A stretch of DNA of 64,000 bases from Leucothrix mucor DSM 2157 (GTDB lineage Bacteria > Pseudomonadota > Gammaproteobacteria > Thiotrichales > Thiotrichaceae), in the NCBI RefSeq assembly GCF_000419525.1, contig NZ_ATTE01000001.1, forward strand, positions 620,001-684,000. The letters are read 5' to 3'. The notes beneath the pieces are model-generated. The model did no database searches. It was not told the DNA's origin and was given only the letters and a program-made list of their open reading frames with translations. Below are positions 23,819 through 26,697 of the stretch, one piece after another (within the stretch, counting starts at the first letter, position 1; each line of letters begins with the position of its first letter). A program made the position numbers and the translations under genes.

Positions 23819-25117
23819 ATGACTGCTGAAGTAATAATCTTAAACTCGTCAGGAGTTGCGCTGGCCGCCGATAGCGCGGTGACCATTGGCGGGACTAAAA
23901 TCTACAACACGGCCATCAAATTGCTGGCCCTCTCCAAGACTGAGCCAGTCGGCATTATGATCTATGGGAATGCCGGTTTGATGGGTGTTCCGTGGGAAAT
24001 TTTGATCAAGGTTTACCGCACCCAGCTAAAAGATAAAAAGATGGATAAGCTGGAAGACTACGGGGAAGACTTCCTCGATTTTCTGCGAAACCGTTCTGAC
24101 TTATTCCCCAGCGAGGTAGAGCGCCAGTGGGTCGGTAGCAATGTCTATCGTTACTATAATTTCCTACGCGAAACGCTGGTTAAAAAAGTACAACCAATTA
24201 TCGAAGCGGGAACGGCCATTGGCGAGCCAGAGGTGGCTAAAGCCTTTGAGGAGTTGATCGACGAAAAGCACAAGATGCTCAGCGAGCAGCCCTATATCAG
24301 CGATATGGATAAAGCATTTGAGGCCAAAGCGCGTGAGCACTATGACGAGCTATTTCGCGAGCTGTTGGAATCGACCTTCCAGAACCTCAAACCCAAACGA
24401 GGCTATGTCACCAAGCTTTATGATATTGCCATTTACTTGCACACCCGCGTTGCGTTTTCACGCGGTAGCTCGGGATTGGTAATTGCAGGTTATGGCGATA
24501 CTGAAATTTACCCATCAGTACTGAGTTACGAGCTGGAAGGGATTCTTCGCGGCAAGCTCAAGTATCAGGTGCTGAAGGACAAGTCTAAAAAAATCACCAA
24601 ATCCAGCGATGCAGCTATCTACCCTTATGCGCAGGAAGATATGGTGAATTTATTCATGAATGGGGTGAATTCACAGATTTTGATGTACCTGCAAACGGCC
24701 CTTGGCGGCATGGTAGAGCGTGTGCCTGATTTGATTAAGGATGAGGATTTAAATACAGAATCGCGTTCCGCCGAAGAAATAAAAGATGAGATTGGCTTAA
24801 GTTATCGGGCATTGCTGGGTACGTTTTATCAGGACTTTGGTAAGCATATTCGCGACTCGCATATTTCACCGGTCATGAGCATGGTGCGAGTATTGCCTAA
24901 AGATGAGCTGGCTGCGATGGCTGAGGCTTTGGTTAATCTAACGGCATTTAAGCGTAAAATGACCAATACGCTGGAGACGGTAGGTGGACCGATTGATGTA
25001 GCGGTAATTTCTAAAGGTGATGGTTTGGTTTGGGTGAAGCGCAAGCATTACTTCCCCAGTGAATTGAACGCTAATTTCTATCAGAATTATTTTAGAGGTA
25101 TCGATGATGACAAATAA
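23819..25117 (+). CDS. Proteasome-fold Ntn-hydrolase-like protein
   Basis: This 432-residue protein starts M-Thr-Ala with GAGG six bases upstream of the ATG. Removal of Met would expose Thr1. Counting from that Thr, Asp falls at 17 (in LAADSAVTIGG) and Lys at 33 (in NTAIKLLAL), the catalytic triad spacing of proteasome beta subunits and HslV. GIMIYGNAG near 45-53 matches the family's core glycine region. About 150 mostly helical, charged residues are inserted before a second strand block, SSGLVIAGYGDTEIYPSVLSYELEG, which resembles the central strands of beta subunits. It is longer than HslV (about 175) and Anbu (about 240). It is first in a four-gene operon with a small protein, NfeD and stomatin. 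Peptidase activity is inferred. Confidence 0.7.
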   Translation: MTAEVIILNSSGVALAADSAVTIGGTKIYNTAIKLLALSKTEPVGIMIYGNAGLMGVPWEILIKVYRTQLKDKKMDKLEDYGEDFLDFLRNRSDLFPSEVERQWVGSNVYRYYNFLRETLVKKVQPIIEAGTAIGEPEVAKAFEELIDEKHKMLSEQPYISDMDKAFEAKAREHYDELFRELLESTFQNLKPKRGYVTKLYDIAIYLHTRVAFSRGSSGLVIAGYGDTEIYPSVLSYELEGILRGKLKYQVLKDKSKKITKSSDAAIYPYAQEDMVNLFMNGVNSQILMYLQTALGGMVERVPDLIKDEDLNTESRSAEEIKDEIGLSYRALLGTFYQDFGKHIRDSHISPVMSMVRVLPKDELAAMAEALVNLTAFKRKMTNTLETVGGPIDVAVISKGDGLVWVKRKHYFPSELNANFYQNYFRGIDDDK

Positions 25118-25286
25118 ATCGACAAAAAAATTCCATTCTGTGGAGCAGCTAAGAGCGGAGCTATTTCCCAATAAGACGGAGTCTCCGGATAAAGCCCATT
25201 CAAATCAAAAGCCAGCGGAAGAGGCTGAGATTTTGGCCAATAAGCTGATTGAAGATCTGATGCGCCCATTAAAGAAAAGGGCTTAA
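25104..25286 (+). CDS. Small charged protein coupled to the Ntn-hydrolase-like gene
   Basis: This is a 60-residue product (59 if the second ATG at 25107 is used). GAGG at 25095-25098 gives a ribosome site, and the start lies inside the last codons of the preceding gene (14-base overlap), so translation is probably coupled. It is very hydrophilic: a Lys/Ser-rich start, the segment FHSVEQLRAELFPNK, a Pro/Asn linker, then a predicted helix EEAEILANKLIEDLMRPLKKRA. There is no signal, membrane segment or known family. The size and coupling suggest a subunit or adaptor of the Ntn protein. It ends 2 bases before nfeD. Confidence 0.7.
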   Translation: MMTNKSTKKFHSVEQLRAELFPNKTESPDKAHSNQKPAEEAEILANKLIEDLMRPLKKRA

Positions 25287-25288
25287 GT

Positions 25289-25741
25289 ATGGAAATGCAA
25301 ATCCTGTATTGGCATTGGATTGTGCTGGGTATTGGCTTGATGGCGATTGAGATTGTTTTGCCATCATTTGTTGCTTTGTGGTTTGGTGCAGCAGCTGTGT
25401 TGGTTGGTATTTTAGTGCTGATTATGCCAAGTCTGCCACTGGCCTTGCAAGTGTTGTTCTGGGTACTGTTTGCAGTATTGTTCACTTGGCTCTGGTTTAA
25501 ATATATGCAGCCACTAGCTAAAGATAGAACCAAGGCGGGCTTGTCGCGCGAAGCGATTGTTGGTGAAACCGGACAAGTATTAAGTGCTCCAACTAGTGAT
25601 CGTCGTGGCGTATTACGTTTTTCAGCGCCGATTTTAGGTGCAGATGAGTGGCAGTTTATCTGTGATGATGCTGTAAGCCCTGGTGACCGCGTCAGAGTCA
25701 TTGATATCTCAGGTAACAGTTTGATCGTTAACAAGGTTTGA
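25289..25741 (+). CDS. Short-form NfeD family membrane protein
   Basis: This 150-residue protein has three closely packed transmembrane helices (about residues 8-75: IVLGIGLMAIEIVLPSFVALWFGAAAVLVG and following). A cytoplasmic OB fold follows (about 90-148, EAIVGETGQVLSAP to ISGNSLIVNKV). It is the short NfeD class without the N-terminal ClpP-like serine protease domain of long NfeD proteins. Short NfeDs pair with stomatin/SPFH proteins, and here the SPFH gene follows after 11 bases. AAGGG seven bases before the ATG serves as the ribosome site. Confidence 0.9.
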   Translation: MEMQILYWHWIVLGIGLMAIEIVLPSFVALWFGAAAVLVGILVLIMPSLPLALQVLFWVLFAVLFTWLWFKYMQPLAKDRTKAGLSREAIVGETGQVLSAPTSDRRGVLRFSAPILGADEWQFICDDAVSPGDRVRVIDISGNSLIVNKV

Positions 25742-25752
25742 GGAGTTAGAAA

Positions 25753-26604
25753 ATGTTAGATGCAGGTTTAATTATGGCCTTGGCATTATTGTTTATTGTT
25801 GCAATGACGATCGCCAAAGGTGTGAGACTAGTGCCGCAAGGTTATAAATGGGTTGTGCAGCGTTTGGGTAAATACCATTCCACGCTCCAGCCGGGTTTGA
25901 ATATTGTGATTCCGTTTGTGGATACGGTATCTCATAAGGTAACAACTAAAGATATCGTATTGGATATCCCATCGCAGGAAGTTATCACTCGTGATAATGC
26001 TGTGATCGTGGCTAATGCAGTGGCGTATATCAATATCGTCGCGCCTGAAAAAGCAGTATACGGCGTTGAGAACTACGTCGTGGCGATTCAAACGCTAGTG
26101 CAAACCTCACTGCGTTCGATTATCGGTGAAATGGATTTAGACTCGGCCTTGTCATCACGTGATCTGATTAAGTCTAAGCTGAAGGGTATGATTTCAGATG
26201 ATATCTCCGACTGGGGTATTGTGCTGAAAACGGTTGAGATTCAGGATATTAATCCGTCCGGAACCATGCAGCATGCGATGGAAGAACAAGCCGCTGCCGA
26301 ACGTGCCAGACGTGCCACGGTAACGCGTGCAGAAGGTGAGAAGGCTGCGCAAATATTGGAAGCTGATGGGCGATTAGAGGCATCTCGTCGTGATGCTCAG
26401 GCGCAGGTTATCTTGGCTGAGGCGAGCAAGCGGTCGATTGAGATGGTGGCCTCTGCAATTGGTGAAGAGCAATTGCCCGTTATGTACTTGCTGGGTGAAA
26501 AATATGTAGGCACCTTGGAAAGGCTAGCCTCATCACCTAATAGCAAGTCGATTGTATTCCCGGCGGATATCCCGTCAGCCATAAAGGGTATGATGGGTAA
26601 GTAG
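25753..26604 (+). CDS. qmcA: SPFH/stomatin family membrane protein (QmcA-like)
   Basis: This 283-residue protein has an N-terminal membrane helix (about 4-20) and an SPFH domain starting VPQGYKWVVQRLGKYHSTLQPGLN with the characteristic VLDIPSQEVITRDNA. A long Ala/Glu/Arg-rich coiled coil (about 175-235) and a C-terminal oligomerisation segment follow. It probably forms ring assemblies in the inner membrane that corral proteins and restrict proteases. GAGGAG lies 7 bases before the ATG. It is last of the four-gene operon and is closed by a strong terminator. Confidence 0.9.
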   Translation: MLDAGLIMALALLFIVAMTIAKGVRLVPQGYKWVVQRLGKYHSTLQPGLNIVIPFVDTVSHKVTTKDIVLDIPSQEVITRDNAVIVANAVAYINIVAPEKAVYGVENYVVAIQTLVQTSLRSIIGEMDLDSALSSRDLIKSKLKGMISDDISDWGIVLKTVEIQDINPSGTMQHAMEEQAAAERARRATVTRAEGEKAAQILEADGRLEASRRDAQAQVILAEASKRSIEMVASAIGEEQLPVMYLLGEKYVGTLERLASSPNSKSIVFPADIPSAIKGMMGK

Positions 26605-26634
26605 GACATTACAGTTTAAGTAAGCTTTAAATAG

Positions 26635-26674
26635 AAACGGCGGGCAGTCCTGAAATGGATTGCCCGCCGTTTTT
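26635..26674 (+). terminator. Rho-independent terminator after the SPFH gene
   Basis: AAACGGCGGGCA (26635-26646) pairs with TGCCCGCCGTTT (26661-26672), followed by further T residues. The twelve-base-pair stem lies between convergent genes and probably also ends darP transcription in the other direction, where the T-tract is interrupted. Confidence 0.88.
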
Positions 26675-26697
26675 GTATTCTAAATGAATGCTAGCGC

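Follow-up and report, generated by a model that had tools for sequence, protein, structure and literature searches.

Why does a proteasome-like protein stand at the head of an operon whose other recognisable members are a short NfeD and a stomatin? The question is raised by a 64,000-nucleotide stretch of the 5.19 Mb genome of Leucothrix mucor DSM 2157 (contig NZ_ATTE01000001.1, positions 620,001 to 684,000 of the forward strand; hereafter the window), in which four genes follow one another closely between positions 23819 and 26604. The initial annotation proposed a membrane-microdomain protease system, in which the leading N-terminal nucleophile (Ntn) protein supplies proteolysis that the short NfeD lacks, with stomatin as scaffold or substrate. 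We favour a different answer as the probable one, namely that the core is a mobile two-gene threonine-hydrolase module, consisting of an enzyme of the PMI-4 type and a partner of about 60 amino acids (aa), captured in front of the nfeD-SPFH genes in Leucothrix. The two open reading frames (ORFs) of the module and their elements are as follows.

23819 to 25117, + strand: ORF1, 432 aa, proteasome-like Ntn protein with no propeptide and a nucleophile Thr2 after the start Met (family comparison and AlphaFold model)
23822 to 23824, + strand: Thr2 codon, Thr1 of the proteasome after Met removal (frame comparison and structural alignment)
23870 to 23872, + strand: Asp18 codon, equivalent to Asp17 (173 of 174 frames)
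23918 to 23920, + strand: Lys34 codon, equivalent to Lys33 (invariant in 107 of 107 aligned rows)
24110 to 24445, + strand: helical insertion 1, residues 98-209 or so, placed behind the first helix pair and predicted to hold four helices (AlphaFold secondary structure)
24770 to 24892, + strand: helical insertion 2, residues 318-358 or so, lying between helix 3 and helix 4 (AlphaFold secondary structure)
25104 to 25286, + strand: ORF2, 60 aa, small partner with the motif aromatic-x-S-x3-Q/E ... (F/L)FP and a C-terminal helix (alignment, hidden Markov model, substitution ratios and structural model)

Tblastn detected relatives of ORF1, with identities of 29-38%, in 10 plasmid records and in 13 from phages or satellites. 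An alignment built from these records returned at least 491 relatives in bacterial and archaeal genome contigs and at least 154 in viral contigs, the best 80 being kept in each case; a scan of the viral contigs with the single sequence had found no relative where this alignment-based search succeeded. Because they are the best 80 of at least 491, the genome loci lean towards the query; 398 Pseudomonadota genomes were therefore drawn independently as a counterweight.

The leading protein had been called proteasome-like, and this description stands, carried by conserved residues and by a predicted structure. Altogether 178 loci hold 180 matched frames (own and duplicate records counted), of which 174 reach the N-terminus, the remaining 6 being fragments or broken frames that match the profile from no earlier than position 7. 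Every one of the 174 has a start codon followed by Thr at codon 2, and 173 have Asp at residue 18, the exception, L004, having Glu. Across the 107 rows of an alignment that excludes the divergent L004 and the long-tailed L013, Met1-Thr2, Asp18 and Lys34 are invariant, and L013 itself carries both Asp18 and Lys34. The family pattern described by Fuchs et al. 2021 is Thr1-Asp17-Lys33 (PMC8665760). In the AlphaFold model of ORF1 (mean predicted local distance difference test, pLDDT, 93) the best VIA-align chains are yeast 20S beta5 (4qv8_K; Z 18.6, 185 residues, root-mean-square deviation 3.2 Å), with the alignment beginning at model residue 2 against beta5 residue 1, and Z is at least 8 for 997 of 1000 Foldseek-ranked chains. 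The parts of the model beyond the 185-residue alignment fall outside the proteasome core. A YGNA stretch lies near the expected spot of the oxyanion-hole Gly47, a placement that is approximate and not at residue level. Fold and catalytic residues are common to ORF1 and the 20S proteasome beta, HslV and Anbu type (HslV itself being absent from the rows shown), whereas the matched chains of this type measure about 200-235 aa against 432 aa with two helical insertions for ORF1. Taken together, sequence and model identify ORF1 as a proteasome-like Ntn protein, for which catalysis would be expected.

Searches by sequence alone recovered this relationship poorly. A PDB search with the single ORF1 protein gave no credible match, and one with the ORF1 profile found proteasome beta at only E 0.014, ranked below Cullin-3. 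The Cullin-3 chains match the profile at E about 0.001-0.005 over positions 24068-24304 of the window (about residues 84-162, in a helical insertion), probably a chance likeness of helical proteins. Neither ORF1 nor ORF2 has a Pfam or NCBIfam match above cut-off, and ORF1 matches 0 families in either collection at E ≤ 1, so that, in contrast to the 20S proteasome and HslV, no curated proteasome profile covers it. It corresponds instead to PHROG 5990 (9.8e-132), a family of unknown function.

To which group of proteasome homologues might ORF1 belong? Fuchs, Alva and Lupas described 22 new proteasome-like subfamilies in 2021, without finding a genomic context that pointed to their function (PMC8665760). 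The most numerous of these, with 501 sequences at nr90, is PMI-4, a proteasome homolog with multiple insertions, placed after H1/H2 and between H3/H4, that lacks a propeptide and is known from most bacterial phyla, Euryarchaeota and phages (PMC8665760). The insertion sites of ORF1 match those of PMI-4 by the order of secondary-structure elements, and the taxonomic spread of its relatives agrees with the published one; the Thr1/Asp17/Lys33 pattern, the absence of a propeptide, the two insertion sites and the range over bacteria, archaea and phages are common to both. ORF1 thus fits PMI-4, an assignment made by published description and not by direct sequence comparison. PMI-4 as published has no functional gene context, whereas a small partner, cargo sites in prophages and satellites and the Leucothrix operon are added here; the partner and the recurrent cargo sites give PMI-4 its first testable context.

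Is the small protein a true companion of the enzyme? The DNA ends too soon to tell at L060 and at the viral L115, L116 and L130, which leaves 79 genome and 77 viral loci, and a short ORF directly follows the Ntn gene at all 79 of the former and 75 of the latter. The strict ORF2 motif is present at 50 of the 79 genome loci, compared with 1 of 527 control genes (at least 200 aa, same loci) and 0.28% of shuffled sequences; the sequences in which it was counted are also those that supplied it, and we regard it as strong sequence evidence of pairing. A hidden Markov model (HMM) of the small protein finds 59 of the 79 genome loci (leaving L022, L043, L062 and L089 out of the test). When run against 30,689 ORFs it gave 76 matches, including those four loci, and all 76 lie just downstream of an Ntn gene, 70 as placed by script and 6 from coordinates by hand, a result that is partly circular as the HMM was in part trained on them. 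The ratio of nonsynonymous to synonymous differences per site (pN/pS) of ORF2 is 0.18-0.48 in nine pairs, and 0.44-0.48 in the Leucothrix pairs. The protein is predicted, at modest confidence (pLDDT 77), to be helical, with helices at 13-20, 28-31 and 37-59. The small ORF is unannotated in the two Escherichia coli stretches examined and listed as a hypothetical protein in several phage and plasmid records, and the partner appears to be undescribed in the open-licence PubMed Central literature on proteasome homologs that we found. In the nearer relatives, then, the short downstream ORF, the motif and the HMM carry the pair beyond this genome, as the initial annotation had supposed.

Several counts weigh against extending the pairing to the whole family. 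The bare presence of a short ORF is weak evidence, because nearly half of the control genes have one next to them (237 of 527 genome and 146 of 318 viral cases). The strict motif occurs at 0 of the 77 viral loci and the HMM finds only 9 of them, so phage partners may be non-homologous. At the 10 independently drawn loci the Thr is kept in 10 of 10, while an HMM partner is found in only 2, and a short ORF occupies the usual place in 6 and is missing from it in 4, one of which (L214) has an HMM match slightly further off. Since the independent draw gave this weaker result, we consider the pairing firm in the nearer clade and uncertain in distant relatives.

A natural fusion of the two proteins was also sought, in the C-termini of the longest proteins and in the DNA of L117 and L126, and none was seen; at L117 a translation by eye shows the small ORF to lie in an overlapping frame. 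At the viral locus L126 (7322 onward) the small partner is replaced by a hydrophobic protein, judged by eye to be of membrane type, whose ORF begins where the Ntn gene ends.

The pair is mobile and has a patchy distribution, occurring in satellites, prophages, plasmids and archaea. Within the class of Leucothrix, relatives are present in 4 of 369 genomes, own counted, with some matches fragmented or divergent; the phylum-wide draw holds them in 10 of 398, own counted, and the 10 drawn loci were read from the 9 others. A match is found in 22 of 5426 E. coli genomes. Nine of these are at 99% identity or above, and the one examined is a prophage gene on the opposite strand beside antiterminator Q. 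The other 13 show a 14%-long match of 73%, and here the one examined (L196) proved to be a full-length gene, directly behind a helix-turn-helix protein and divergent from a small regulator, neighbours that we read as CI-like and Cro-like. A near search of E. coli with L151 gave no match. A prophage version of the pair occurs in E. coli strain H3. Each of the four streptococcal phage or satellite records examined has the Ntn gene as its final or penultimate one, and a Providencia phage carries it in the interval from antiterminator Q to holin, together with other genes. The 116 neighbours of 30 viral representatives include 11 that match the repressor family phrog_4 and 11 that match the regulator family phrog_8, possibly the same proteins in both cases, and integrase, endolysin, holin and Q-like proteins also occur (top 25 of 187 families inspected). 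In a quick tree of 97 rows, in which 46 of 94 inner branches are poorly supported, 22 changes account for the labels bacteria, archaea and viral, against a shuffled mean of 37. The labels are clustered, yet with repeated crossings between the three groups.

The E. coli L196 protein, WP_231531568.1 (L196:8777-10180), is annotated with 33 extra codons ahead of the conserved MTAE start, and the nucleophile Thr is hidden because of them.

How might such a module work? Methionine aminopeptidase would expose Thr2 as the N-terminus, making a propeptide unnecessary, and Thr2, Asp18 and Lys34 would form the catalytic centre. The two helical insertions may stand in the way of a double ring like that of the proteasome, and may shield the active site or supply it with substrate. 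Insertions of this kind may block ring assembly or else point outwards as a cap (PMC8665760), and because they could prevent assembly our guess is that ORF1 acts as a monomer or small oligomer. The co-translated small helical protein would bind the enzyme as regulator, adaptor or gate and restrict cleavage, or a connectase-like transfer, to chosen substrates; we infer that it is probably the element of specificity or control. As accessory cargo, the module would come and go on prophages, satellites, plasmids and chromosomes.

What, then, would the two-gene unit do for its carrier? This is the real question, and virus exclusion is perhaps its answer. The module may protect whatever carries it, with phage exclusion as the leading candidate, a tentative suggestion drawn by analogy from the carriers and from the position of the gene. 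In lambda, the prophage exclusion genes rexAB stand behind CI, and the place of the L196 gene behind its helix-turn-helix protein is presumably the same; the position is similar, the proteins differ, and, unlike for rexAB, we know of no exclusion phenotype for the Ntn module. It is conceivable, if doubtful, that PMI-4 and its small partner form an undescribed antiviral system, in which a proteasome-fold threonine protease, held inactive or aimed by the partner, blocks competing phages on behalf of the prophages, satellites and chromosomes that carry it. If true, this would place a proteasome relative in prokaryotic immunity without unfoldase or ubiquitin. The wider neighbourhood argues the other way. 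Most of the 25 Pfam families inspected (of 163) for 128 neighbours on chromosomes have metabolic or housekeeping roles, each occurring in 1-2 proteins, which is unlike defence islands. When 2121 ORFs neighbouring the genome, viral and annotated loci (greedy calls, at least 80 aa) were clustered by blastp, every cluster was confined to 3 genome loci or fewer, with no recurrent third gene and hence no recurring unfoldase gene. Against PADLOC, ORF1 has only a partial match to PDC-S05 (E 0.0014, residues 66-172), short of any known defence model. A scan of 128 neighbours of 76 genome loci (25 of 207 families; 10 hand-picked singly, no background control) gave restriction, methylase or Avs1a-model matches at L023, L025, L028, L054 and L056, and at L057 a kinase match that may be generic; these carry no claim of enrichment. 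A search of open-licence PubMed Central found nothing joining proteasome-like or Ntn proteins to phage defence, the sole match being on bile salt hydrolase, and the word 'phage' is absent from the available part of PMC13022661.

The same neighbourhood can be turned to another account, that of a general quality or stress protease, in which an uncapped proteasome-like enzyme clears damaged proteins and, as prophage cargo, aids the lysogen in surviving stress. This is a real possibility, though we would not put it forward as the likely one. It agrees with the wide spread in bacteria and archaea and with the mostly housekeeping neighbours given above, and unfoldase-independent roles have been suggested for such homologues (PMC8665760). 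However, a gene so rare in its own class and phylum, and riding on satellites and prophages, is unlike a core quality-control protease.

Less probable, in our judgement, is that the small protein is a dedicated substrate, cut or ligated by the Ntn enzyme in the manner of a toxin/antitoxin or of peptide processing. The close pairing in nearer relatives, with overlapping or abutting genes, would suit such an arrangement, as would the finding that connectase, a relative, acts as a specific ligase (PMC8665760). Against it, no leader or core peptide was noticed in the alignment by eye, no systematic test having been made, and the small protein is predicted, at modest confidence, to be a helical chain.

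There remains the operon that gave rise to the question. Beyond ORF1 and ORF2 its elements are:

25289 to 25741, + strand: ORF3, 150 aa, short NfeD without protease domain (PF01957, 1.9e-8)
25753 to 26604, + strand: ORF4, 283 aa, SPFH/Band_7 (stomatin-like) protein (PF01145, 5.1e-38)
26631 to 26676, + strand: intrinsic terminator hairpin of the operon (folding energy against shuffles)

The physical description in the initial annotation was accurate, with four genes joined at -14, +2 and +11 bases (ORF1/2, 2/3 and 3/4, read from the sequence) and one strong terminator at the end. The hairpin at 26631-26676, overlooked by a simple terminator scan, has 20 pairs and a 3' arm that ends T-rich, and folds at -37.9 kcal/mol (z = -10.7, with 0 of 200 shuffles as good). 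A consensus scan, made on sequence and not on RNA, found no + strand promoter-like or terminator-like site between 25117 and 25289. The NfeD is likewise the short form, its 150 aa holding the NfeD C-terminal domain only, with no ClpP or serine-protease domain and no protease among its other Pfam matches, which fall below cut-off.

Its partnership with the Ntn protein is a local feature of Leucothrix. NfeD and SPFH neighbours were scored at all 178 loci by phmmer (E < 1e-3, the window's own proteins as queries), a search that very divergent members would escape and that is shortened where loci end within a few kilobases. They were found at five loci from three Leucothrix genomes, with one locus from the window's own genome, two from L. 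pacifica and two from a metagenome-assembled genome (MAG). NfeD or SPFH adjoins in 2 of 80 genome loci, both Leucothrix, and in 0 of 78 non-Leucothrix genome, 0 of 80 viral, 0 of 13 annotated phage or plasmid and 0 of 10 independently drawn loci. The relatives of ORF1 thus lie mostly away from nfeD and stomatin, and the proposal that the Ntn protein belongs with them did not hold. Within the genus, the four-gene order is more than chance because it is kept in L. pacifica and in the Leucothrix MAG, where a contig break splits a gene, and a genus-specific link is possible since all three genomes with the pair keep tight small-nfeD junctions. A further Leucothrix genome (G002) has the order nfeD-SPFH-darP-parE without the Ntn pair and with a different upstream gene, so the pair was either added to, or lost from, an existing operon. 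The congeners G006 (99% complete), G001 and G004 (56 and 69%) gave no match at E ≤ 0.001 to the Ntn gene or to this NfeD. Under the two-gene reading, the module would have been acquired ahead of an nfeD-SPFH operon already in place, with which it probably shares a transcript, leaving NfeD and stomatin outside the core module, and these neighbours should not be read as the function of the Ntn pair.

The idea that a protease is missing at all is also weak. PMC2636767 describes the pairing of SPFH1a with an NfeD1a that lacks the ClpP domain as nothing out of the ordinary, and reports an interaction with FtsH for YbbJ/YbbK of E. coli. ORF3-ORF4 is an ordinary short NfeD with SPFH, differing from pairs of the PH1510/PH1511 type in the absence of the protease domain from NfeD and in the preceding Ntn pair, found only in Leucothrix. 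That the Ntn protein replaces an NfeD protease and acts on or through stomatin is accordingly very improbable, for all the conserved order, tight junctions and single terminator in Leucothrix, and as a general system it is rejected on the gene neighbours and on the genome that has nfeD-SPFH but lacks the pair.

Two observations concern single neighbourhoods of Ntn relatives. In Pseudoalteromonas caenipelagi an upstream gene on the opposite strand (L023:7242-8417) matches PADLOC Avs1a at E 1.7e-217, likely a defence locus beside the module. On three rhizobial plasmids, one from Mesorhizobium and two from Rhizobium, ThiF and multiubiquitin genes are found no more than 5 kb from an Ntn relative (L013:1733-6437, L014:5001-10512 and L018:5001-10524, with DUF6527 in one), which we read as a ubiquitin-like conjugation operon near a proteasome-like protein.

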